Below, piece after piece: positions 1,016 to 16,516 of a stretch of 21,121 nt of DNA (positions are counted from its first letter, which is position 1; each line of letters begins with the position of its first letter). Source of the DNA: a virus. The stretch covers positions 1 through 21,121 of the IMG/VR virus record IMGVR_UViG_3300021959_000494; one strand, given 5' to 3'. Made by a program: the position numbers and the translations under genes. Under the pieces are notes generated by a model. It worked only from the letters and a program-made list of their open reading frames with translations. It had not been told where the DNA came from and made no database searches.

Positions 1016-1306
1016 CTATTTTTTTACAACTACTCTACCAGTAAAGTTTGAGTCAAACTCAAGGGATACTGTATTAGCGTTTGATGCAGTTATTGATGCA
1101 GGAAGCACTTGGTGCTTATCTGTATCGTATATTTGTACTATTGGATAGTCTTCGTTAAGGTTGTGGGTAATTGTATAGGAAGAGTTGCCTGAAATAGCTT
1201 GATCATATCGAGCTATAGAACCAGCTACAGAAATGTCTCCTGTAACGTTTAAAGATGTTAGGGTAGCGTTCGAGCCGCTAGTAATTAATTTTTTCCAGTT
1301 TGGCAT
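1016..1306 (-). CDS. Small fibre-module protein, W-K-K tag plus ITHN beta module (96 aa)
   Basis: This protein has two visible parts. Residues 1-25 carry the MPNWKKLITSGS tag, which recurs as MASWKKLIVSGS in the 281-aa protein and [12 protein letters not shown] in the 475-aa protein. Residues 43-96 form a beta-rich module (TITHNLNEDYPIVQIYD, then LPASIT, NTVSLEF and GRVVV) that matches residues 58-108 of the 281-aa protein. Such modules occur in phage fibre and tail-tip proteins. It looks like a minimal relative made of anchor plus one module, possibly a fibre tip, a decoration protein or an accessory adhesin. The gene sits between the 77-aa gene and the left-edge fibre gene with small gaps on each side. 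It is intact, and the upstream gap contains a promoter-like octamer and a possible branched hairpin. Molecular function is not recognised beyond the fibre family resemblance. Confidence 0.75.
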   Translation of the reverse strand: MPNWKKLITSGSNATLTSLNVTGDISVAGSIARYDQAISGNSSYTITHNLNEDYPIVQIYDTDKHQVLPASITASNANTVSLEFDSNFTGRVVVKK

Positions 1307-1323
1307 GTTACTTCTATTTACGG

Positions 1324-1362
1324 TTGGCTACTCTAAATGAGTCCACTTCCCTTACGGGCCAA
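1324..1362 (-). other. Possible branched RNA structure in the leader of the 96-aa gene
   Basis: TTGGC at 1324-1328 can pair with GCCAA at 1358-1362. This encloses ACTC-TAAAT-GAGT (1330-1342) and CCC-TTAC-GGG (1349-1358, which competes for one outer G). All stems are only 3-5 bp and there is no U-tract, so a terminator is unlikely. The evidence is weak. Confidence 0.2.
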
Positions 1363-1375
1363 TAATTAGCTTTAA

Positions 1376-1384
1376 TTATAAATA
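1376..1384 (-). promoter_or_regulatory. Candidate late promoter, TATTTATAA octamer (copy 2)
   Basis: Minus strand reads GACTATTTATAATTAAAG. It lies 38 bases past the stop of the 77-aa gene and 69 bases before the start of the 96-aa gene. The ten bases TATTTATAAT are identical to copies 1, 4, 5 and 7. Confidence 0.45.
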
Positions 1385-1421
1385 GTCTATAAAATATAAG
1401 AAATAAATACTTAAGAGCAAA

Positions 1422-1655
1422 CTACTGCTCTTTCAACTTTGTAAGTTTAATCCAGATATTAGAGAAGTATTCAAATTCAGAACCAATGTAGTTCGCAGAA
1501 CGTAATTTAGTTAAGATAAAGTTAATTTCCTCTACTGTGAGAGTATTGATAGAAACACCTTCTATCTTTTTTAAATTTTCTAGTGTATTAGGTTCCTTTA
1601 TAGTAGTCTTTCCTTTTGTAACCAATCCCATTTTTTTGAGTAATTTTTTAAGCAT
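1422..1655 (-). CDS. Small basic/helical hypothetical protein (77 aa)
   Basis: The frame could be extended upstream to an ATG at 1730, but that start would put 83 bases inside the 281-aa fibre gene. ATG 1655-1653 overlaps that gene's end by only 8 bases, as expected in an operon, and gives a 77-residue protein starting MLKKLLKKMG. The N-terminal half is basic (KKLLKK, GKTTIKEP). The C-terminal half is predicted helical with the pattern LTVEEINFILTKLRSA followed by an aromatic stretch (EFEYFSNIWIKL). I do not recognise a family with confidence, although small proteins of this kind follow fibre genes in other marine T4-like phages as far as I recall. Codon use and AT content match the neighbours. 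Function unknown; a fibre-assembly chaperone or small virion protein would suit the position, but this is speculation. Confidence 0.6.
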   Translation of the reverse strand: MLKKLLKKMGLVTKGKTTIKEPNTLENLKKIEGVSINTLTVEEINFILTKLRSANYIGSEFEYFSNIWIKLTKLKEQ

Positions 1656-2493
1656 AAATAAATATAGTACCTGAGTCAATTTTGACGTTACCGTTTTTTT
1701 GATATTCTGGTACGTCTGAATGACCGGCATCTATATCTACAACTGCTGATGCAAAAGCATCAGGGGTAGCAGAAGCTGCTGTATGTCCTAAAGAACCTGT
1801 GAATCCGAATCTTGCAGCAGTATTATTGTAAATCAATGCATGACCTGCTCCTGAACCTTCATCTATAATTATACCTCCTTGATTAGGAGAACCAGAACCT
1901 GAGTTTAATAAAATAAATTTATCCTCAACTAATAAGTTAGTTGTGTTTAATGTAGTAACATCTCCTTCGACTGTTAAGTCTCCAGTTATAGTCATCCCTG
2001 CAAATGTTGGAGTAGATGACTCTTGTAGAGTAGTAATATTAACGTTAGAACCATTCAAACGAACTTGACCTTGGTTAGTACCGGCTAATGAACTAGATAC
2101 TAAGCCTGCAGGAATATTTGAAATATAATCCCAACCTGTAGATCCTGATACTATATGACCTCCTTTTCCTACTACTGCATGTCCAGAAGTATTCTGGTCG
2201 AATGCTACAGTAACAGTATTACTATTTGTCAACGTAATAGAAGCAGGGATAAGCATTACACCATTGCTATCATATACAGATACTATAATGTTGTCTGTAT
2301 TAAAATTGTGTGTAATAACTTTAGAAGTAACATTAGTGAATGTATCCTCTACAGTTGCTACTTGAGAAACAGTTACGTTAGTCAAGTTTGAACCATCTCC
2401 TTGAAAAAAGGATGCGGTTACTGCGTTGGTTACATCAATATTAGCTAATTCTGCTTGCGATCCGCTTACAATAAGTTTTTTCCAAGATGCCAT
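1648..2493 (-). CDS. Modular tail fibre protein with W-K-K tag, ITHN module and FILLNSGS C-terminal module (281 aa)
   Basis: The modules in order are: residues 1-12, the anchor-like tag MASWKKLIVSGS; about 30-40, [11 protein letters not shown], which matches [11 protein letters not shown] in the 475-aa protein; about 58-108, the beta module ITHNFN ... VYDSNG ... IPASIT ... NTVTVAF shared with the 96-aa protein; about 160-281, a C-terminal domain with [45 protein letters not shown] and a final IFIYA. This last domain aligns closely with residues 345-475 of the 475-aa protein. Fibre-family membership is well supported by these repeats, and role in attachment to the host surface is inferred. The start at 2493 has no Shine-Dalgarno box; upstream lies a hairpin but no TATTTATA octamer, so it may be read through from the 475-aa gene. 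Confidence 0.8.
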   Translation of the reverse strand: MASWKKLIVSGSQAELANIDVTNAVTASFFQGDGSNLTNVTVSQVATVEDTFTNVTSKVITHNFNTDNIIVSVYDSNGVMLIPASITLTNSNTVTVAFDQNTSGHAVVGKGGHIVSGSTGWDYISNIPAGLVSSSLAGTNQGQVRLNGSNVNITTLQESSTPTFAGMTITGDLTVEGDVTTLNTTNLLVEDKFILLNSGSGSPNQGGIIIDEGSGAGHALIYNNTAARFGFTGSLGHTAASATPDAFASAVVDIDAGHSDVPEYQKNGNVKIDSGTIFIYA

Positions 2494-2535
2494 TATCGAT
2501 TCTGTATTTTTATATTACTGTTATATTGCGACTAA

Positions 2536-2575
2536 TAAGGTTGGACGAGGAGCTCTATGCTCCCCGCCTTCCTTA
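2536..2575 (-). other. Intergenic stem-loop between the 475-aa and 281-aa fibre genes
   Basis: As minus-strand RNA, GGGGAGC-AUAGA-GCUCCUC forms a 7-bp stem (2547-2565) around a 5-base loop, and an outer UAAGG/CCUUA stem (2571-2575 with 2536-2540) can close it. One inner pair is G-U on the minus RNA but A-C on the plus RNA, which favours a minus-strand transcript. No U-tract follows, so a simple terminator is unlikely; an mRNA processing or stability element fits better. This is inference from base pairing only. Confidence 0.45.
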
Positions 2576-2581
2576 AAAAGT

Positions 2582-4009
2582 TTATACATAAATGAAGATA
2601 TCGTCGCTACTATCAACTTTCATGTTTCCACGTTTGTGGTATTCAGTATCTGCAATGTCATGAGCAACATTGTCTTGATCAACTACTAAAGAAACATATG
2701 CTTCACTGTTAGCTGTTGTTGCTGTATTACTGTTAACAGATTGATTAACACCAAATCTACCATCACCAGAGTCATAAATGAAAGCATGTCCAACACCTGA
2801 TCCTTCGTCGATGATGAAACCACCTTCGTCTGGATTAGCTGAACCTGAATTCAATAAAATGAATTTATCTGTAATTGCAGTGTTAGTAGTGTTAAGATAC
2901 GTCATATCGCCACTTACAGTAAGATCACCGGAAATGATTGCATCTCCTGATAATGTTAATCCTGCAAATGTAGGTGAATCACCTGTCTGTAATCCTGTAT
3001 CAACGTCTGTGTTAGCACCATTTACTGAAGCTCTAACAGTACCTTGAGAAGGAGAAGTGAATGCTGAAGCAGAAACAATTCCTGAAGAATCAGAAATGTT
3101 AAATGTTACAGCGTTGTTTGATACTACTGCATCTAATCCTGCACCACCAGCAAATGTGATTGTCTCACCTCCTGCTACTGTATCTGTACCGGTATCACCA
3201 GCCAAACCTAAACTAGTAGCTACTGCTACTGTTCCTGCTGCTGTTAATCTACCTTGTGCATCAACTGTGAATGTTGGAATAGCTGTAGTTGAACCATATG
3301 ATCCTGCTGTTACTGTTGTATCTGCAATTTTAGCTGCAGTTACTTGGTCATCAGCAATGTGAATTGTATCAATAGCTCCATCTACGAAATGCTCACTATT
3401 AATTGAGTTATCAGCAATCTTGTCACCGTTAACTGCATCAGCTGCTATTTTACCTGCACTAATTCCTAAATCTTTAACTCTTACTGCTCCTGTACCATCA
3501 GTTGCTGATAGTTCGATTGAAGCTCCATCTACTGTTACTTCGATTTCATCAGCATTAACGGTTACACCGTCTCCACCAATTACATTAAGTGTTAAGTCAC
3601 CTGTAGTACCACCACCAGTTAAACCTGCTCCTGCAGATACACCTGTGATGTCACCGTCTAAGTCAGCATCGATTGTAATAGTACCAGCAGCATCATCATA
3701 TGTTGCTGTAATGTTAGTACCACCTACTATCGCTGCACCGATCACGTCTTCTACTCCTTCTTCAAATCCAGCTGTTGAAGTTGCTGTAATTTGAGCTGAA
3801 GAAGAAACTAATGTCGGTTTTCCTGTAATGTTTCCGAAAGCAATCGAGCTAGCGGCTACATTTGTTAAGTTTGAGCCGTCACCCGTAAAGCTTCCATTGA
3901 ACGAACCAGAAAGTGTTGCACCAGAACCACCCTCTGCGAGGTAGTTTGCATCATTTACTAATTGAGCTACGGAGGATCCCGAGACGACGACCTTTTTCCA
4001 TTCTGCCAT
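2582..4009 (-). CDS. Modular tail fibre protein, Gly/Thr-rich shaft with FILLNSGS C-terminal module (475 aa)
   Basis: Residues 1-12 are the tag [12 protein letters not shown]. Residues 33-50 contain [18 protein letters not shown], and 56-74 [20 protein letters not shown], a segment that recurs in the 1271-aa and left-edge proteins. Residues 117-140 hold [20 protein letters not shown], a widespread fibre turn motif. About 155-235 is a repetitive shaft with recurring A-x-K-I-A-D units ([31 protein letters not shown]). About 245-300 reads [15 protein letters not shown] and onward. Residues 345-475 are the C-terminal module ([12 protein letters not shown] ... [10 protein letters not shown] ... 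[18 protein letters not shown] ... IFIYV) shared with the 281-aa protein. The role is inferred to be a tail fibre or side-fibre component. A promoter-like octamer lies 46 bases before the start. Confidence 0.85.
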
Positions 4010-4055
4010 AATTTTTAATTTTGAATTTAAAAGGGTTGTTAATAATTGTTATTGT

Positions 4056-4064
4056 TTATAAATA
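4056..4064 (-). promoter_or_regulatory. Candidate late promoter, TATTTATAA octamer (copy 3)
   Basis: Minus strand reads CATATTTATAAACAAT. It lies in the 67-base gap between the 210-aa and 475-aa fibre genes, 13 bases after the first gene's stop and 46 bases before the second gene's start. The octamer is perfect; the last base of the usual extension is A instead of T. Confidence 0.45.
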
Positions 4065-4076
4065 TGTTCATATAAG

Positions 4077-4709
4077 TTAAACTCCAAAATAAAAATGACC
4101 GTCGCTACCAAAGTAAATACCGCCTGACATTGGATCAGGAACTGCACTTTGTGAAACAAGAACCATAATACCTTGTTGATTAATTTTAAATACTTCTGTC
4201 GATGCAGAAGTTATACTAAGAGGTGTTGATACACCATCGTAATTTAATTCTAAAGAACCAGTTACTACTAGATTATTAGTAGTTGAATAAAGAGAACCTG
4301 TTGCTGAAAATATACCGGATGTTGATAAATTTGTTACAGCGTCTGTAAAATGTGTTGAGCCGGTATCTAGTGTTAAACTAACAGTACCTGTTGAACCGCC
4401 ACCAGATAGTCCAGCACCCGGTGTTACACCTTTTATATCTCCAGCGAAAGCATTAAATTCTAACCAAGAAGCTGAAGGAGCATAAGTGTTAACATAGTCA
4501 GGTTGATGTACTGTTGCTTGATACAAATTAGAGTCGCTAGAAACGAAAACAATTTGATCATCAGATATACGAGAGACTGATTCACTTAGAAGTGCTTGAA
4601 AAGTATCATAGACTTTAAAAGCTCCTTTTATGTGAGTAACATCAGCTAACTCTGTACCTGCATTTTTAGCAGCTGTTGTTAAATCTAATTTTTGACTAAA
4701 TAATGGCAT
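4077..4709 (-). CDS. Fibre-like structural protein (210 aa)
   Basis: The N-terminal part (about 1-90) differs from the W-K-K tagged proteins: it starts MPLFSQKLDLTTAAKNAGTE and contains VYDTFQALLSES and SSDSNLYQATVHQPDYV, a pattern often seen in fibre proteins that carry a small globular domain. Residues 90-135 have GDIKGVTPGAGLSGGGSTGT and GSTHFTDAV, the same turn and STHFTD motif as in the left-edge fibre protein. The C-terminus (GGIYFGSDGHFYFGV) resembles the closing strand of phage fibre proteins. The gene follows the 1271-aa adhesin by 8 bases and probably belongs to the same transcript. It is intact and has no catalytic motif. Likely a tail-fibre, fibre-tip or connector component; I cannot tell which. 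Confidence 0.7.
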   Translation of the reverse strand: MPLFSQKLDLTTAAKNAGTELADVTHIKGAFKVYDTFQALLSESVSRISDDQIVFVSSDSNLYQATVHQPDYVNTYAPSASWLEFNAFAGDIKGVTPGAGLSGGGSTGTVSLTLDTGSTHFTDAVTNLSTSGIFSATGSLYSTTNNLVVTGSLELNYDGVSTPLSITSASTEVFKINQQGIMVLVSQSAVPDPMSGGIYFGSDGHFYFGV

Positions 4710-4717
4710 CTCTTATA

Positions 4718-7700
4718 TTAATTCGTTGGAGCAGATCCACTGCTCGGTGTTAATCTTAATTCTAATGTATTAGCTGTTTGAGTTGCAGTTCCTGCAATAA
4801 CATACCAATTACTATATCCATCAAATGAATTTTCAAGAGGAAGATTATGTATCTCTGCTCCATTTATGCTGTTAGTCCAACCGGCTGAGTCTGGATTAAC
4901 ATTAAAAACATATTCACCTACAGTTGTTCCAGAAAATGATTGTCCTATTGATGTCGGTACTCCTTCTAGGTCTGAATTAGAGGGTACTAAAATAAATATT
5001 TGTTCTTGTACGTTTCCTGCAGCAAAGCTTCCTTCTTGTCGAAGTAATTTGTCAACAGAATTATATGTTGCGGATCCGTCTATGTCTACTCTCCTAGTAA
5101 CCGTTCCTCCTCCAACTGAAAAAGAACTATTTCCTAAAGAACCAGATTGAAATCCATTATACGGTGAATTTGTACTTGTACCGGTAATTAATGTAGGAGT
5201 AGCAGTAGATGTACTAGTGATTCCAGTTGTACCGTTAAAATTACTACTAAGTCCTAAAACTCTATTACCGGATAATGTATATACTAGAGCTCTACCAAAC
5301 TCTAAACTCTGATCTATTGTTATTGTTCTGCTATATGTTCTACTTTTACCGAAGTTATCTGTAATGTTTATATCTACACTATAGCTTCCAGCTGTTAATG
5401 GTCCATTAGCTTGAATAATGTAAGATGAATTGGTTCCATTTTGAGATACTGCTGTAAAGCTGCTAGAGTTTGTACCTGATAGAGTTAAAGTAAATGGAGT
5501 ATCGTTTTCTGTGTCAGAAATATTAACCGACATTAAATTTGCTCCGCTTATAGCGTTATCTGTGTTAAAATTATTAGAATAGTATCCAATTGCTGCAGTT
5601 GGTGCAGCATTTTCAGTTACAGCTATAGTTATTCCACTTAAATTAGTATTCCCGTACTGATCAGTCCAGGTTATAGTAGTATTTAGTATATCCCCCGAGG
5701 ATGATGAACCACTTACGTTAGATGCTATTGATAACCTACCGTTAGTATCTATTGCTATTTGATTATTACTAGATGCCCAAACTTGGACATATTGACTATT
5801 ATAATTAGGTGAGTAACTAACACTTAGCTGGCCTTGAGTTCCTGTTCGGCCGTTTGAATTAGTAACTATATTAGTTCCGCTAAGAGCTGATTCAATAATA
5901 TAGAAACTACCGTTTGTTGATAGGTTTCCTGTCGTAGCTTGCTGTATTGCTATTGTATTATTTGCAACTAAAGTATCATCCCCATATTCATCTTTAATAG
6001 AAATGGTATAACTATAATTTCCAGCACTTAAGTTAGAACTAGCAGTTATAAAGTATGTACCTGCGTTATAGTAGTACCCTAACCCTGTTGCTCCAGAGAA
6101 TGTAAATGTTGAATGATCTATGTTGTCACCGTTCGGATCACTAAATGTTATTGTATCTAATGTATTACCTGCTAATGCTCCATTGGTATTATAGTTAGCA
6201 GTCTGTTGAGTTAAGTTCTGTGTAGGTGCAGCATTATCTGTTACAGCTACAGTAAAGGTTTGCTCAGTTACAGTACCAAAGCTATTAGAAGCTGTTACAG
6301 ATCCTACTAAGGATGCTCCTGCTACATAAGAACCGGATATATCTGCAGCTAATTTAATTCTACCTGAGCTATCTATGTTAAATAAGTTGGAAGTGCTGTT
6401 TACATTCCAGTTTACAGATTGATTAGCGGTAAATTTTGCTTTAGTACCAGCTTGACCAGATGCATTACTGGTTACAAAATCGTTTGTAAGTGCTGATTCT
6501 ATAATATAGAAAGGAGTGTTGCTACTTATTGCTGCTGCTAAGTCATCAGCTATAGGAATTGTGATTGTAGCTGTATTAAAGGTAGTATTAAAATTGTCAG
6601 ATACCTTAACAGAGTATCTATACTCATCGATTCTATCTGAATTAATAAAGCTATTACTAATTCTTGTTATTCTTCCTGAGGAAGACATTTGAAATGGATC
6701 TTCGTCTGGGTTTGAATGGCTTGTTCCTGTGTAATATCCAGGTGAAACTATCCCTCCATTGTACCAAGCCTCTAAAAAAGTAAAGTTTGTAAATACTACT
6801 GTATCACCTTCAGGGTCTGTAGCTACTATATCCTTATAAGTTACTCCATCATTTACATCTTCACTAAAACCGGTTAATGTTTGATTGTTAATAGTCGGTA
6901 TCACATTATCTGTAACATTAATAGTTATTGGAAGTTGTGTAATCGAGTCGTTATCAAGTCCTGCTTCATAGTGTTCGTCAGCAGCAGTGATGTTAAATGA
7001 GTATGATGAAGTAGTCTCGTAGTCTAAAGAAGAAGTTGCCTGTACTATCGATACATAATTGGCGGATTTACTTACTGTAAAATGGTCTCCTGCTATAGAA
7101 CTAGAGGTAATAGTTATTGAATCGCTTTCATTATCAGTAAAGTATAGTCTAACTACCTCTCCTGCTGAAGCATTTTCGTTTCTTGATGTTGTATAAGAGT
7201 TAATTATTGATCCACCCGTAGATCCTTGTCTAAATACCGGTGCTGTGTTAGGATTAACTCTTAAGTAAGCTGTTTGTGTACCTACAGCACCAAAAGAATC
7301 CGTAACATTTATCGGAATTTGATGTGCCAGTACTCCATCTCCTCTATCTATAGTATTAATAGAAGCTGAAGCAAAGGTTACCAATGAAAGAACACCTGAA
7401 TTTGTTATACTTACTTTATTATCTAAGTATGAACTAGCAATTCCCCATGTTAATGACTGTGATTCTGGGTCTGTAGCTGATAGTGTTGCTATATTAGTAC
7501 CTGCAACCGTGTATTCTGATATACTAAGGTTAGGTGAAGAGGTTATATTAGGTGCAGAGTTAGGAAAGAATATCTTATCTAAGAATTCTGTTACACTTCC
7601 GCTTGTTCCTGCATTGAAAGTATTGTTAAATAGGTCTGGTAATAGTGTATTAGATACTATTCTATTACCATTATAGTTAGTATTCCCGAATCCTGATCTA

Positions 7701-8533
7701 ACAGCTGATTCTGAAATAAACGTATCGCTTATAAAAGAGGCTGAGTCGGCATTTACTGCATGAGATGATGATAATTCTGTGATTATCTCGTAAGATGCAC
7801 TTACAGCATAGGAAGCTGATACTGCATTTGCTGCTATGCCAGTGGCTAGACTTAAATCTATCTGTGCTGAAGAGGAAACTAATGTAGGTTTATTAGTAAT
7901 ATCATCAAAATCTGTAGATATAGAAGATATAGAGGCAGCTAATGAGCTACTTACAGAATCTATTAATGTACTTACAGAACCTGAGTTTGCTATTTTAATC
8001 CAATTACCGGCATGAGCGAAATACCCTGCTCCAGTAGAATGAACGTGTGCAAACATACCGTGGTATTGATTAGCGCTAGGTAAATCACCTTCTGTAGGGT
8101 ATACATTAGAGTACTGTATCTTTTTACCGGGTATATCTATGATTGATGCGGAAGATGATATTAATTCAGGTTTATTAGTTATATCATCAAAGTCTGTAGT
8201 TATTGACCCTACTGAAGAAGCAACTGAGCTACTAAATGCATTAAATTCAGGTGTGGTAACTACTCCTACACCGTTAATTAGTATAGAACCAGTCAGATTT
8301 AATGAACCAGTAAAAGAATGTACATCGTCTGATGTATTACCGAACTTAGATGAACCGCTTTCGTATAGTATTGAAGCAGAAACTACCTCTGAGTGGTAAG
8401 CTTGTGCAGATACAGTACCGTCCACAGTAAGATCCCCAGTAATCGTCTGTGATCCGTAAAGATTTAACGATCCTGTTATGTCTCCGTTCCCGTTTAATGA
8501 CGGGCTTATCTGTTTCCACTGTATTAATGCCAT
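4718..8533 (-). CDS. Giant cadherin/Ig-like repeat adhesin, likely tail fibre (1271 aa)
   Basis: Residues 1-30 (MALIQWKQISPSLNGNGDIT) faintly echo the W-K tag of nearby fibres. Residues 105-230 contain two copies of a segment, TTDFDDITNKPELISSS and [17 protein letters not shown], whose second half also occurs in two other fibre proteins. From about 328 to 1075 run roughly seven beta-sandwich repeats of about 100 residues with cadherin-type features: ATDPES (353-358), LDYE ... ITAADE (503-520), ATDPEGD (571-577), and repeat ends VTDNVIPT, VTDNAAPT and VTENAAPT. A two-repeat unit beginning FYIIESAL is duplicated (about 675 and 877). The remaining 195 residues form a separate Ser/Gly-rich tip. 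No signal peptide or membrane segment is seen, consistent with a virion protein. The start directly abuts the gp15-like gene's stop, so they are cotranscribed. Binding of host surface glycans or proteins is inferred. Confidence 0.8.
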   Translation of the reverse strand: MALIQWKQISPSLNGNGDITGSLNLYGSQTITGDLTVDGTVSAQAYHSEVVSASILYESGSSKFGNTSDDVHSFTGSLNLTGSILINGVGVVTTPEFNAFSSSVASSVGSITTDFDDITNKPELISSSASIIDIPGKKIQYSNVYPTEGDLPSANQYHGMFAHVHSTGAGYFAHAGNWIKIANSGSVSTLIDSVSSSLAASISSISTDFDDITNKPTLVSSSAQIDLSLATGIAANAVSASYAVSASYEIITELSSSHAVNADSASFISDTFISESAVRSGFGNTNYNGNRIVSNTLLPDLFNNTFNAGTSGSVTEFLDKIFFPNSAPNITSSPNLSISEYTVAGTNIATLSATDPESQSLTWGIASSYLDNKVSITNSGVLSLVTFASASINTIDRGDGVLAHQIPINVTDSFGAVGTQTAYLRVNPNTAPVFRQGSTGGSIINSYTTSRNENASAGEVVRLYFTDNESDSITITSSSIAGDHFTVSKSANYVSIVQATSSLDYETTSSYSFNITAADEHYEAGLDNDSITQLPITINVTDNVIPTINNQTLTGFSEDVNDGVTYKDIVATDPEGDTVVFTNFTFLEAWYNGGIVSPGYYTGTSHSNPDEDPFQMSSSGRITRISNSFINSDRIDEYRYSVKVSDNFNTTFNTATITIPIADDLAAAISSNTPFYIIESALTNDFVTSNASGQAGTKAKFTANQSVNWNVNSTSNLFNIDSSGRIKLAADISGSYVAGASLVGSVTASNSFGTVTEQTFTVAVTDNAAPTQNLTQQTANYNTNGALAGNTLDTITFSDPNGDNIDHSTFTFSGATGLGYYYNAGTYFITASSNLSAGNYSYTISIKDEYGDDTLVANNTIAIQQATTGNLSTNGSFYIIESALSGTNIVTNSNGRTGTQGQLSVSYSPNYNSQYVQVWASSNNQIAIDTNGRLSIASNVSGSSSSGDILNTTITWTDQYGNTNLSGITIAVTENAAPTAAIGYYSNNFNTDNAISGANLMSVNISDTENDTPFTLTLSGTNSSSFTAVSQNGTNSSYIIQANGPLTAGSYSVDINITDNFGKSRTYSRTITIDQSLEFGRALVYTLSGNRVLGLSSNFNGTTGITSTSTATPTLITGTSTNSPYNGFQSGSLGNSSFSVGGGTVTRRVDIDGSATYNSVDKLLRQEGSFAAGNVQEQIFILVPSNSDLEGVPTSIGQSFSGTTVGEYVFNVNPDSAGWTNSINGAEIHNLPLENSFDGYSNWYVIAGTATQTANTLELRLTPSSGSAPTN

Positions 8534-11790: not shown

Positions 11791-12477
11791 CTAATCTCTG
11801 AAGGTTCTATATACGTTTAATACAGGTGCAACAATGTTATGTCTATGGTTTTGTTCTAATGAGGCAGTTCTAAAGCCTTCTACTTGTTCTTCGACTCTAG
11901 AGAGAAAAGAAAATCCAGTTTCTCTTTTATCTTTTAAATCTATTTGTGCCATATCTCCACAAATTACCATCTTAGATCCTCTACCGAGTCTACCTATTAC
12001 TGTTTCCATTTGATTATGAGTAACGTTTTGCGCTTCATCTACTATTACAAATGAATTTAGAAACGTTCTACCTCTCATAAATGCAAATGGTACAATTTCT
12101 ATTCTACCTTCGTCTAATTCTTTTTGTATTTTCTCCTTATTATATAGCATATGTAAATTGTGATATATTGGAGCTAACCAAGGATCCATCTTCTCTCTTA
12201 TATCTCCTGGAAGAAAACCTATATCTTCTTTAGACACTGTAGGTCTTGTTATGATAATCTTATCTATACGTTTAGTGAATAGTAAATCTAATGCTACTTG
12301 AGTTGCTACTAGTGTCTTACCACTTCCTGCCATTCCTTTTATTACTGTGATTGGAGCTTCTAGTATTAACTTTTTTGCTTCTTTTTGTTCTTCGTTTAAT
12401 GTTACATTGAACTTAATTGGTCGCTTAGGGCGATTCTTTTTGACGAATACATCGTCAGTATGATGGTTTGATGCCAT
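11791..12477 (-). CDS. phoH: PhoH-like P-loop ATPase (228 aa)
   Basis: Walker A is GMAGSGKT at residues 48-55, followed by a long helix. The ITRPTVSKEDIGFLPGDIREKM segment (76-97), the MRGRTF motif (134-139) and the Walker B block FVIVDEAQN (143-151) are hallmarks of the PhoH domain, and CGDMAQIDL (around 173-181) is the following sensor-like segment. The length of about 230 residues fits the single-domain phage type, without the N-terminal PIN domain found in PhoH2 or the KH domain of other bacterial homologues. PhoH-like proteins are predicted RNA-linked ATPases and are frequent in marine phages; the older link to phosphate stress is weak for phage copies. The gene sits alone between the gp23 terminator and the neck operon, with promoter-like octamers before and after it. 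A role in late RNA metabolism is inference. Confidence 0.93.
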   Translation of the reverse strand: MASNHHTDDVFVKKNRPKRPIKFNVTLNEEQKEAKKLILEAPITVIKGMAGSGKTLVATQVALDLLFTKRIDKIIITRPTVSKEDIGFLPGDIREKMDPWLAPIYHNLHMLYNKEKIQKELDEGRIEIVPFAFMRGRTFLNSFVIVDEAQNVTHNQMETVIGRLGRGSKMVICGDMAQIDLKDKRETGFSFLSRVEEQVEGFRTASLEQNHRHNIVAPVLNVYRTFRD

Positions 12478-12538
12478 TCAGTTCTATTTTAATTAATATA
12501 CCTTTTTTTATAACCTTAATTGTAATATAGTAATTTAA

Positions 12539-12547
12539 TTATAAATA
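12539..12547 (-). promoter_or_regulatory. Candidate late promoter, TATTTATAA octamer (copy 5)
   Basis: Minus strand reads GTCTATTTATAATTAAATTAC. It begins 3 bases downstream of the gp23 terminator's U-tract and 61 bases before the phoH start. A new promoter directly after a terminator is the strongest positional support for reading this motif on the minus strand. Confidence 0.55.
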
Positions 12548-12550
12548 GAC

Positions 12551-12576
12551 AAAAAAAAAGAGGCCCGAAGGCCTCT
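12551..12576 (-). terminator. Rho-independent terminator after gp23
   Basis: On the minus strand, AGAGGCC-TTCG-GGCCTCT forms a perfect 7-bp stem with a UUCG tetraloop, followed by a run of eight further Ts. The stem ends 24 bases past the gp23 stop. This is a textbook intrinsic terminator and would end the abundant capsid transcript before phoH. Confidence 0.93.
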
Positions 12577-12600
12577 CTTAATTTATTCATAAGAATAATC

Positions 12601-14172
12601 TTAGATCTGAGCTAAGTCAGAGATAAAGATTTTTCCGTAGAATTCAGGTCTGATCATCTTCTTAGCGTAACGAGTCATTAAACCTTTTCTTGGAGTGAAA
12701 GATTCTGGATCGTATACTAATGGAGTCATCATTAATGGTACGTAAGGTGCGTATACAGCTCCTGTTTCTAGGAATTGTGAACCTCTGTAACCCATCAATA
12801 AGATGTTTTCAGTCATGTAAGGATTCTTGTAAACTTTGAATCTGTTTGCAAGAGAACCAACTTTCTGTACTCCCATGTTGAAGTCCATTTGATCACCGTC
12901 TGTTGCAGCAGCATATCCAGGAATAGATTCTAGGATTGTTGCAACGTTTGGAGATACTACTACGAAGTTTGCACCACCTCTAAGAGTTTTCTGGTGAATC
13001 TTGTTAGATACTTTTTGGATTTTAGTTCCTAAAGTTTGGAACCATTGTCCTTGAGTATTGTAGAAATCAGAAGTAGAGTTAGTCCAGTTTGAACCGTTCC
13101 ATACTTTGTTGTTTTCTGCAGACCAGTGCTCAGTTGTTCTAGCACCTAAGATCAACATATCTAAAATCTCTAGATCGATTTCCATTGAAATGTACTCACT
13201 TAATAGTGAAGTCAATTCAGCTTCTGCATCGATTGAGTGATATGCGTTAAGATCTTGTGCGAATTCTGGAGTCCATTGTGCTTTTAACTTTCTAGTCTTA
13301 GCAACAATTGCCTCAGATGCAAGTTGAACGTCGATTTCTGGAATCGCTAAGTTTTCAACTGCTCTATCAGAATTTGCTTCATAGTCACCTCTAGTGTTGT
13401 CAGATGGTTGTAAGTGGTAGATTAAATCTTTGTTACCAGTTGAACCAGCTGCTCCAGTTGCTACTACGAATTCTACGTTAGCTCCATTCAATTGTGTAAA
13501 TTGAGGGAAGTTAGCAATACCTGCTAATCTGAAAGCTCTAATTCCTTCTGCGTCAGCACCTGCTGGTAGAGCAATAGAAACTAAATCATAATCTGCAGGA
13601 GATAATCCTACTTCATGATTGATAGATCCAGATGCTACTCCAGTTGTTACTGTAGCTGCTACAGAACTAGAAGCGTCATTGATAGTGTAGCCAAATTGAC
13701 CTGCACCATACATACCGCCTGCTACGTCTACGTCTTTTCCGATTTTAGAATTAGCGTCAGATACATTACCATAAAGGCTTTCTCCGTCGGTTCTTCCATT
13801 CTTAGTGTCTCCGTATTTGAAGTCTAAGTAAAATACTAGCCCTGAAGGCAAGTTCATTGGTTGTACAGATACGAAATCTTGTGCAACGATAGATGAGAAT
13901 ACTTTTCTCACCAATGGTAAAGCTACTCCTGCCCACTGCTCACCTGCTCCAGCAGAAAATCCAGTACTTGTACCAGATGCTCCTGTGTTGTTAGCTTCAG
14001 CGACAATTTGTTTTGCTTGGTTTTCAAGGATTACAGCCATGTTATTTGCATGTCTGTTGTCTTTGATACCTTCTAGCAATCCACTAGCTCCCCATTTTTC
14101 TGCTAATTTAGCAGAGTCAGCTTGCATACTTTTGTAAGTATTTGAGCTCTCTAATAGGTTATTAATTTCCAT
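12601..14172 (-). CDS. 23: Major capsid protein, T4 gp23-like (523 aa)
   Basis: The landmark region is residues 80-120: WAGVALPLVRKVFSSIVAQ, then DFVSVQPM and the segment NLPSGLVFYLDFKYG, which correspond to the T4 gp23 stretch around I-x-x-F-D-I-C-G-V-Q-P-M-N-S-P-T-G. The protein forms the hexamers of the icosahedral head (HK97 fold). T4 gp23 is 521 residues, so the length is right. The N-terminal propeptide (roughly 1-59) contains several sites of the gp21 type: LLE ending at 34, ILE ending at 50, and VAE ending at 59. By position relative to T4 (cleavage at residue 65), E59 or E50 is the likely maturation site. The gene follows gp22 by 24 A/T-rich bases with no Shine-Dalgarno box and is followed by a strong terminator. 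Confidence 0.95.
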   Translation of the reverse strand: MEINNLLESSNTYKSMQADSAKLAEKWGASGLLEGIKDNRHANNMAVILENQAKQIVAEANNTGASGTSTGFSAGAGEQWAGVALPLVRKVFSSIVAQDFVSVQPMNLPSGLVFYLDFKYGDTKNGRTDGESLYGNVSDANSKIGKDVDVAGGMYGAGQFGYTINDASSSVAATVTTGVASGSINHEVGLSPADYDLVSIALPAGADAEGIRAFRLAGIANFPQFTQLNGANVEFVVATGAAGSTGNKDLIYHLQPSDNTRGDYEANSDRAVENLAIPEIDVQLASEAIVAKTRKLKAQWTPEFAQDLNAYHSIDAEAELTSLLSEYISMEIDLEILDMLILGARTTEHWSAENNKVWNGSNWTNSTSDFYNTQGQWFQTLGTKIQKVSNKIHQKTLRGGANFVVVSPNVATILESIPGYAAATDGDQMDFNMGVQKVGSLANRFKVYKNPYMTENILLMGYRGSQFLETGAVYAPYVPLMMTPLVYDPESFTPRKGLMTRYAKKMIRPEFYGKIFISDLAQI

Positions 14173-14196
14173 TGTTTTAGAATTTTAATTTATTAA

Positions 14197-15288
14197 TTAT
14201 GATTTGATAATACCTGCAAGTTTCTGCATTCTTCTGACAGTGTCAGATACTTCTGAAATTACTTCTGGTTTAGTAGCAGTAATTCCGGTAGCTTTAGATG
14301 CAAGACCCTTAACTTTTGATTCAGAAACTTGTTTCTTTGTACTAATTACATTTTCAGAAACCGTTTCAAATACTAATTTAACTTCTTTTACTGTTTCCGC
14401 TTTATCGAAAGCAGCAATGATGTTAACTTTTTGAGATTCAGCCAAATTATTTGCCTTGAATATCTTGTTTACGTATAATAGTTTAGAGTTCAATAAGTTT
14501 ACTTCTTGTAAATCTTTTCTAAGAGTCTCAATTGTATCAAGTGCTCCTTTAAGATCTTCTTTTAAAGTATCGTTAACGTTCTTTTCACTAGTATCGCTTT
14601 CAGCAGGAATTTCGTTAGCAGTATCTTCAGAGACTGGCTCTTCTGTTGCTGCTTCTAATTCTGCTAATAACTCGTCTAGGTCGATTTCTTCTTCGCCTTC
14701 TGCTTCTGGTTCTGCTTCTAGTCCTGGTTCCTCTAATGGAGCTTCATCGCCTAATCCTTCAATATCACCACCGTCCATATCTGCACCTAAGTCTGCGTCT
14801 CCGCCTACTTCTTGTGCTATGATATCTCTAATCATGTCTTTGAATTGATCAACTGATAATTTACTCAAATCTTCGTCACCATCGATTTCTTCAGCTTCCT
14901 CAGCTTCTGGTTCAGCATCAACTTCGGGTTCAGCTTCGTCTTCAGATTCTTCTGAATCATCCTCAGCTTCTTCGTCGCCTTCCATTGCAGGTTCAACCTC
15001 TGTTAGATCTTCCTCTATTGCTTCTTCTTTTTTGTCGTCTTTAGAATAGTCTCCTTCATCAACTGTTTCATCTTTCTTATCGTCAGATTTTTCAGCTTCT
15101 TTTTCAACTTCGTTTACTACTTCTTCTTCTTGTGTGGAATCTTCCATTTCTTGAAGTTTAGCAGCTAACATGTCTTTTAGATGTGGAGTAAGACTCTCTT
15201 CTAAAGCTTCTTTAGCGTTCGCAATAGCGGCTTCACGTACAGATTTTGCCTCAGCAATAGCTTGCTTAAACATTTCTTTGTTTGCCAT
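14197..15288 (-). CDS. 22: Prohead core scaffold protein, T4 gp22-like (363 aa)
   Basis: The protein has three zones. Residues 1-50 are helical with an alternating A/E/K pattern and an early IAE (11-13). Residues 52-235 are extremely acidic, built from Glu/Asp/Ala/Pro runs, interrupted by a short helix (LSVDQFKDMIRDIIAQEV, 144-161). Residues 240-363 hold the conserved-looking part: TLKEDLKGALDTIETLRKDL coiled coil, LLYVNKIFKANNLAESQK, and a terminal VRRMQKLAGI. In T4, gp22 builds the inner core on which gp23 assembles and is later chopped to peptides by gp21; the several (L/I)-x-E sites fit this. It is about 95 residues longer than T4 gp22 because of the acidic zone. Its position between the protease and gp23 matches the T4 gene order. 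A 128-base leader carries a promoter-like octamer and two hairpins. Confidence 0.9.
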   Translation of the reverse strand: MANKEMFKQAIAEAKSVREAAIANAKEALEESLTPHLKDMLAAKLQEMEDSTQEEEVVNEVEKEAEKSDDKKDETVDEGDYSKDDKKEEAIEEDLTEVEPAMEGDEEAEDDSEESEDEAEPEVDAEPEAEEAEEIDGDEDLSKLSVDQFKDMIRDIIAQEVGGDADLGADMDGGDIEGLGDEAPLEEPGLEAEPEAEGEEEIDLDELLAELEAATEEPVSEDTANEIPAESDTSEKNVNDTLKEDLKGALDTIETLRKDLQEVNLLNSKLLYVNKIFKANNLAESQKVNIIAAFDKAETVKEVKLVFETVSENVISTKKQVSESKVKGLASKATGITATKPEVISEVSDTVRRMQKLAGIIKS

Positions 15289-15313
15289 TTTAAAAAAAAT
15301 TGTGATTTTCGGT

Positions 15314-15331
15314 ATAGCTATTAAGAGCTAT
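15314..15331 (-). other. Small stem-loop in the gp22 leader (proximal)
   Basis: ATAGCT (15314-15319) pairs with AGCTAT (15326-15331) around a 6-base loop, 25 bases before the gp22 start. The stem is 6 bp and AT-rich, and no U-tract follows. It may affect ribosome access, but stability is low. Confidence 0.3.
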
Positions 15332-15355
15332 AATGTGAAGTTTATAAAAATATTA

Positions 15356-15376
15356 ATGCAGTATAGATGACTGCAT
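15356..15376 (-). other. Stem-loop at the 5' end of the predicted gp22 leader
   Basis: ATGCAGT (15356-15362) pairs perfectly with ACTGCAT (15370-15376) around a 7-base loop. It starts 7 bases downstream of the TATTTATA octamer, so it would sit at or near the 5' end of a gp22 transcript, where a stem-loop can slow RNA decay. This is inference from position. Confidence 0.4.
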
Positions 15377-15383
15377 ATTCGTA

Positions 15384-15391
15384 TATAAATA
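15384..15391 (-). promoter_or_regulatory. Candidate late promoter for gp22-gp23, TATTTATA octamer (copy 6)
   Basis: Minus strand reads TATATATTTATATACG. The octamer is perfect but the extension differs (TA instead of AT). It lies 26 bases after the 173-aa gene's stop and 95 bases before gp22, ahead of the two most abundantly needed head genes. Confidence 0.45.
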
Positions 15392-15416
15392 TATAAGAAT
15401 TACGAAAAATGAAAAA

Positions 15417-15938
15417 TTAGGCTAATCCTATGTCTGAAAGTATGTTTCGGAATATAGTATGCACTTCTTTTCCTTTAACGAAAGATTTTAAAGTATTAAA
15501 TATTCCTTGACCCCAAGATGATTTTCTTAATGCTTGTATAGCTTCACCTCCATAAGCTCCTGCCATACTAAAAATAAGCAGAGCGTATATTCCTTTAGTA
15601 ACAGGTTCTAAGTATTTTTTAGCTTTACCTACTAGAACTACAGTTAACACTCTTTTAATAGGAGACATGAATGCTTCTTCATTTTTGTGAGTCCAGTCGT
15701 AAATAGCTTTTGATTTATCTTCTACTTTATCCCATCCTTGTTTTTTGGCTATCTTTTTAGCCATTCCGGATATCATATGAGCTACTGTGTTGCTTAGAAG
15801 TATATAACTTATTACTCCTACTACACCTAAAGCTTCTTGAACAGGTTTTTTATTTTCTAGTTCTTTTTCTATTGCTTTGGCTAATTGAGCTCCTAATTGA
15901 GTTTCATCACTCTCTAAAATAAGTTCAGATAACTTCAT
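15417..15938 (-). CDS. Hydrophobic protein with capsid-targeting-like N-terminus (173 aa)
   Basis: The N-terminus MKLSELILE is nearly identical to that of the 99-aa protein and ends in an I-L-E site at residue 9. Residues 12-36 are a charged helix. Residues 36-59 (ALGVVGVISYILLSNTVAHM and on) and about 97-134 (RVLTVVLVG ... GIYALLIFSMAGAYGGEAI) are hydrophobic and could be membrane-seeking or buried helices. Between them is a basic segment (MAKKIAKKQGWDKVEDKSK). Its start overlaps the gp21 stop by one base (TAATG), so translation is coupled to the protease. I do not recognise the family. Placement between gp21 and gp22, plus the cleavable leader, suggests an internal head or core protein; the hydrophobic helices could act on a membrane during DNA entry. 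That last idea is speculative. Confidence 0.7.
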   Translation of the reverse strand: MKLSELILESDETQLGAQLAKAIEKELENKKPVQEALGVVGVISYILLSNTVAHMISGMAKKIAKKQGWDKVEDKSKAIYDWTHKNEEAFMSPIKRVLTVVLVGKAKKYLEPVTKGIYALLIFSMAGAYGGEAIQALRKSSWGQGIFNTLKSFVKGKEVHTIFRNILSDIGLA

Positions 15939-16516
15939 TAAGATCTAATAATATCGTTGATAATAGAATTTAAACTTGAATATCTGTTTTGAGTTCCTTT
16001 ACCTTCTTGTAGTGCTACAGGATTCATAAAAGCACCGTGGGTAGATGGATTAGATACAAAGTCCCAACATACTAGCTCAAAGTCTCCCTGTACTTCTAGA
16101 GTGCCTTCGTTTGTTTGTTGAACTGAACCAGTTCCTCTTGATGAGATACCTATAGTATGTCCTGCTTTGATTATCTCTTTAACAATATTACCAGAAGGGG
16201 TATTAAGTAGTTCTACGCGTCCCATAAGGTCGTTCCCTTTCCAGTATAACTCTTTTACTATATGTGAAGCGTTCTTTAGAGAGACAACAGGAGATTCAGG
16301 ATGATCTAATTCTCCAAACGCATTACCATTTTTAACAAACTCAGATATATACCTTTCGGCTTCTCTCATTAAGATTGCTTTACTATATGTTCTACCATTT
16401 TGGTTTTTAGCAACTGCTCGTTGCATAACTCCTTCTACTTCGAATACTCCAGGTTTATCCTTAGATTCTCTAATAATAGGTTTAAATGGTGTAACGTCTA
16501 CTAGTAATTGTGCCAT
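15938..16516 (-). CDS. 21: Prohead core protease, T4 gp21-like (192 aa)
   Basis: This is a serine protease of the T4 gp21 / herpesvirus assemblin type that cleaves scaffold, core and capsid proteins during head maturation. Visible family features are GVFEVEGVMQRAVAKNQNGR (23-42), the strand/helix YSKAILMREAERYI, the histidine block FGELDHPE (67-74, candidate catalytic His72), and the serine block TIGISSRGTGS (121-131, candidate nucleophile Ser125 or Ser126), followed by DFELVCWDFVSNPSTHGAFM (145-164). T4 gp21 is 212 residues, so this is a full-length compact version. Known T4 substrates are cut after (L/I)-x-E, and matching sites occur in gp22, gp23 and several small proteins here. Cotranscribed with the 669-aa gene (6-base gap) and the 173-aa gene (1-base overlap). 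Confidence 0.92.
   Translation of the reverse strand: MAQLLVDVTPFKPIIRESKDKPGVFEVEGVMQRAVAKNQNGRTYSKAILMREAERYISEFVKNGNAFGELDHPESPVVSLKNASHIVKELYWKGNDLMGRVELLNTPSGNIVKEIIKAGHTIGISSRGTGSVQQTNEGTLEVQGDFELVCWDFVSNPSTHGAFMNPVALQEGKGTQNRYSSLNSIINDIIRS

Follow-up and report, generated by a model that had tools for sequence, protein, structure and literature searches.

The window analysed here, a stretch of 21,121 nt from IMG/VR virus record IMGVR_UViG_3300021959_000494, contains three fibre-type genes that begin with the same short peptide. What this peptide does, and how the sequences behind it came to differ, is the question raised by the locus. The minus strand of the window carries the structural block of a T4-like myovirus, comprising portal, prohead protease, scaffold, major capsid protein (MCP), PhoH and head-tail adaptor, and the adaptor is followed by a run of fibre-like genes on the same strand. 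Among cultured phages the nearest is Flavobacterium phage immuto (genus Immutovirus), whose MCP shares 66% identity with the window's along the entire protein; the MCP of Microcystis phage Mel-JY01 shares about 51%.

Gene D (nt 4718–8533, minus strand, as are all genes below) encodes a fibre-like protein of 1271 residues with a cadherin-type domain. It starts with MALIQWKQIS, a weaker relative of the WKK tag start. Gene E (nt 4077–4709), between D and A, encodes an untagged, fibre-like protein of 210 residues with a weak tail-fibre PHROG match. Gene A (nt 2582–4009) encodes a 475-residue protein made of the WKK tag, a variable middle and a terminal FILLN module. Gene B (nt 1648–2493, 281 residues) has the tag MASWKKLIVSGS, an internal-type ITHN module and a terminal FILLN module. 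A small gene for about 77 residues (nt 1422–1655), the ATG of which overlaps the end of B, lies between B and gene C. Gene C (nt 1016–1306, 96 residues) consists of the tag MPNWKKLITSGS and one terminal-type ITHN beta-sandwich, and it occupies the position at which heads are exchanged in relatives. The next fibre gene downstream of C (nt 3–965) is untagged, starts with MRIHSPLMTNAQATGSF and runs off the window. The middle of gene A (window nt 3001–4000) has a GC content of 42%, compared with 32–40% in the rest of the window, and matches PHROG 13518, which has no function assigned in PHROG. It may be of different origin.

The three tagged proteins and their common modules agree with the preliminary description. 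A and B share the terminal module (47% identity, B residues 74–280, E 1.9e-35). B and C share the ITHN module, with 43% identity over residues 1–110 (E 2.1e-15) and 46% for the module pair itself. The tag has the consensus M[AP]xWKK[VLI][IVL]xSGSxA.L and extends over about 28 residues. Its pattern matches 152 times in 80 related IMG/VR loci, never antisense in these loci and never in 1.24 Mb of reversed control sequence, which excludes a chance origin. Residues 1–12 are near-invariant and conservation declines to background by about residue 28, a profile that is partly due to ascertainment, as some of the loci were retrieved by the tag pattern itself. Residues A14, L16 and L19 are also conserved, though they lie outside the search pattern. 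The tags fall into two classes in fixed order, MA- mostly at the A/B position and MP- on C, which suggests two addresses.

A search of IMG/VR with a degenerate DNA pattern shows that the tag marks a fibre-gene cassette in hundreds of uncultured aquatic T4-like phages, a lower bound counted among the matches listed; one cultured genus, Immutovirus, has the cassette as well. In the 80 loci the cassette has the order D, A/B, small gene, C, and the tagged genes share one orientation. A tagged C lies within 1.3 kb in 70 of 71 loci that were found via B and had sufficient downstream sequence. Across bacterial and archaeal genomes representing 84,980 species, the degenerate pattern matched five times. 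In three cases the match lies in this cassette on a MAG contig; the other two (L209 and L210) have no tagged ORF, so that in these genomes, too, the tag is seen only within the cassette. A peptide search of 50,697 phage records matched solely four Immutovirus records. In Immutovirus the tagged B is annotated as a structural protein and the tagged C as a putative tail fiber-like protein, and the tagged genes are flanked by head completion genes on one side and by the tail sheath gene on the other. The 49-kb stretches of Mel-JY01, Rhodothermus phage RM378 and the 484-kb uncultured phage LR756508, which cover these genomes in part, contain no tag; it is therefore not universal among phages with this capsid type. 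The tag is thus confined to a fibre-gene cassette both in the IMG/VR loci and in the bacterial and archaeal scan, whereas its presence on non-virion proteins would have spoken against the docking proposal of the preliminary description.

Comparison of closely related loci reveals that the sequence behind the tag of C is exchanged. Where the DNA of two phages is 90% or more identical as far as C, homology breaks off inside that gene in 45 of 69 pairs, 28 of these breaks lying within the first 40 codons. At the same upstream identity, B is broken in 10 of 33 pairs, none within the first 40 codons, and untagged genes in 35 of 258 pairs, five within that range. The break frequency in C is therefore far above that of B or of other genes. 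Among the 333 C genes, breaks occur in 47 phage clusters, and the break of the best pair lies in the first 40 codons in 29 of them, against 7.9 expected under a uniform distribution (p about 7e-12). For instance, DNA identity is 99% up to codon 23 of C in L082 and L083, followed by divergent sequence, 96% up to codon 25 in L049 and L054, 89% up to codon 27 in L066 and L068, and 86% up to codon 22 between the Immutovirus isolate (L084) and L103. Most breaks come from metagenome contigs, but in at least one pair one of the genomes is that of an isolate. The nearest relatives of the window (L004–L011) show no recent swap in C. The products of complete C genes range from 92 to 3,132 residues (median 345), and 55 C proteins display a mean column identity of 8% beyond the tag, while residues 1–12 are near-invariant. 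Different heads behind a kept tag, which the preliminary description proposed to look for in metagenomic relatives, do occur, and fixed, vertically inherited versions are not what is found for C.

Known fibre domains are present among the heads of relatives. An S74 endosialidase-type chaperone ends 12 of the 55 dissimilar C proteins, collagen repeats occur in five, the K1-lyase C-terminal and YadA head domains in single members, and many match tail-fibre PHROGs. Whereas these domains are found in relatives, the window's C carries the ITHN domain alone; a neighbouring fibre gene in the window matches tail-fibre PHROGs. In the model of C, residues 33–95 form one beta-sandwich with a pLDDT of about 90, and the model of B has a mean pLDDT of 60. 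The tag is of low confidence in both models, as might be expected of a peptide that becomes ordered on binding, but this may reflect no more than a shallow alignment or the missing trimer. A search of PDB sequences returned nothing for B and weak matches for C, the best being a capsid decoration protein (E 0.06), which was rejected. Structural matches of the C model to beta-sandwiches of phage fibre, neck and adhesin proteins (Z 5–7) are too weak for a family name, viral structural matches of the B model were disregarded as evidence of function, and Pfam matches on A, B and C (ArlS_N, Hom_end) fell under the cut-off.

Recombination could enter this locus in two other ways. The preliminary description regarded the 281-residue protein as a combination of modules from the other two, as if the window's three genes had recently swapped modules among themselves. 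B indeed has one module type in common with C and another with A. In L017 and L034, moreover, internal FILLN copies of A group with those of B from the same genome, which shows that internal modules can be exchanged. However, the window's terminal modules lie in separate clades according to gene position: that of A clusters with its counterparts in L004, L006, L008 and L011 (support 99), and that of B with the B genes of L004, L005, L006, L008 and L011 (support 98). A and B are thus long-standing duplicates, each passed on at its own position. For the ITHN module, the copy in C falls in a clade formed by C-terminal copies (99/98), whereas that of B lies in a different clade with internal ITHN copies from C genes of relatives. 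The 281-residue protein is therefore not a chimera of its neighbours. The trees speak against recent exchange among A, B and C, and the DNA of their tags is merely 56–72% identical from gene to gene, with no sign of homogenisation. We consider recent swapping within the window very improbable; the module exchange foreseen in the preliminary description is real for C across phages and not for the window's own three genes. It might also be thought that the tag serves mainly as a recombination seam, a piece of conserved DNA that favours the shuffling of fibres, the peptide itself having no special role, since the breaks gather at its 3′ side and the B and C tags of L082 and L083 are 89% identical over 38 nt. 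Yet the codon choice at S10, G11 and S12 is nearly free, indicating selection on the peptide and not on a DNA site. The B and C tags are hardly more alike within genomes (72% DNA identity) than between genomes (70%), tags within single genomes are not homogenised, and B, bearing the same tag, has no break in its first 40 codons in the pairs described above. The diversity of codons largely refutes the seam, which we rate as highly unlikely. Apart from the window, two fibre genes of L029 (nt 3960–8099 and 12294–16448), separated by 8 kb, have internal FILLN modules that group together with a support of 97, a sign of exchange within one genome.

We put the probability at about 70% that the tag serves the fibre-type proteins of Immutovirus-related T4-like phages as an N-terminal peptide for docking (or assembly), with exchangeable heads behind it. 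The peptide probably acts as a plug by which interchangeable host-binding fibres are fixed to the virion; it would bind a virion protein, the heads would bind host receptors, and MA and MP could be two addresses. The fibre genes are kept in a fixed cassette with neck genes on one side and tail sheath genes on the other, A/B supplying the MA-type tag with a constant C-terminal module and C the MP-type tag with an exchangeable adhesin head. Recombination would join foreign fibre sequence directly behind the tag to give a new head, and the attachment point on the virion would be kept while the receptor-binding part changes. The common docking peptide of the preliminary description thus gains from the confinement to the cassette and the head exchange in C, but its single common site is doubtful because the MA- and MP- classes occur in fixed order. 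The Baltic flavobacteriophage papers gave no virion proteomics for tagged proteins. It is also conceivable that the peptide is not a docking site and is recognised during assembly, for example by the product of the small gene that separates B from C, or by a trimerisation chaperone. The tag is short and N-terminal, 359 of 409 related loci have an ORF homologous to the small gene immediately before C, and in the window the start of the small gene overlaps the end of B. The small protein, which matches nothing in Pfam and nothing convincingly in PHROG, may be a chaperone or tag partner. Against a role in assembly, C heads frequently have an S74 chaperone of their own, and we find this explanation rather unlikely.

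Podoviruses are known to carry short docking peptides followed by exchangeable receptor-binding parts; what would be new here is a variant of this arrangement in an uncultured T4-like group. Phages of the K1-5/SP6 and KP32/KP34 groups carry short conserved N-terminal docking peptides on secondary receptor-binding proteins; these peptides, 7–11 residues long or specific to a group, attach to an anchor or adapter that contains a T4 gp10-like domain (PMC6872550). As in the K1-5/KP32 systems, the present peptide is short, conserved and N-terminal on several otherwise dissimilar proteins per phage, and the part behind it is exchanged horizontally, as the cluster count and the gene controls above demonstrate. 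Unlike theirs, the WKK tag is about 28 residues long, occurs on two to four genes per genome and comes in two classes. No Pfam or PHROG match to a gp10-like domain was obtained in ten window proteins, and the baseplate genes lie outside the window. The TSP1–4 clusters of Ackermannviridae likewise combine conserved N-termini with exchangeable receptor-binding parts, and a conserved motif was proposed to permit recombination; attachment there involves the N-terminal XD (gp10-like) domains of TSP2/TSP4, beside vriC (PMC8432352). The fibre/spike gene cluster, the conserved N-termini and the exchangeable receptor-binding parts are alike, while the cassette and the phage lineage differ. None of the XD domain profiles matched A, B or C, and the C model is a middling structural match to CBA120 TSP4 (Z 5.7).

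Immutovirus immuto (Flavobacterium phage vB_FspM_immuto, MW353175) is the only cultured phage found with the cassette, in the same order. It differs from the window in having one MA-type gene instead of A and B and an unrelated C head, and its annotation does not describe the tag. Because a cultured phage has the same cassette, the docking idea is testable. The tag is a simple sequence mark for adhesin genes in a large uncultured aquatic T4-like group, whose fibre genes otherwise have little common sequence, and it shows the place of head exchange. Searching for the tag and the sequence following it would list the receptor-binding repertoire directly.

The tag is not bound to one gene position. 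An MA-type WKK tag is found on the gene in the D position, with another N-terminus on B, in L067, L078/L080, L075, L158 and L184. D has WKK in six of 12 loci where B is without it and in none of 143 where B has it, a count that ignores relatedness. Behind their different starts, the D proteins of L067 and L016 share 33% identity across 650 residues; the tag was therefore placed on another fibre body. It is speculative, and in our estimate possible rather than probable, that MA and MP serve as two addresses on the virion, each of which can be moved from one fibre body to another, so that docking and receptor binding evolve independently. Each phage would then fill one MA slot and one MP slot, the MA tag being mostly on B and elsewhere on D. 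If true, docking and receptor binding would be independent parts across hundreds of uncultured T4-like phages.

Other conserved N-termini occur beside the WKK tag. A third type, ...SNRLLASRRYT..LTDxQEAFTxVLDLxSxE, replaces WKK on B in L067, L158, L162, L184, L081 and L185, and these B genes retain the same terminal module. A second motif (MALKFRRGSTADKSGSLSFGEPYVN or MATFQIRRG..GEPY.N) is common to neighbouring fibre genes of L020, L022, L028–L030, L065, L067 and L078, and the cassettes therefore use more than one tag type. Starts near that of the window's gene downstream of C (MRIDSPxMTNAxATGSF) are present on the genes after C in L006 and L034, forming another conserved N-terminus.
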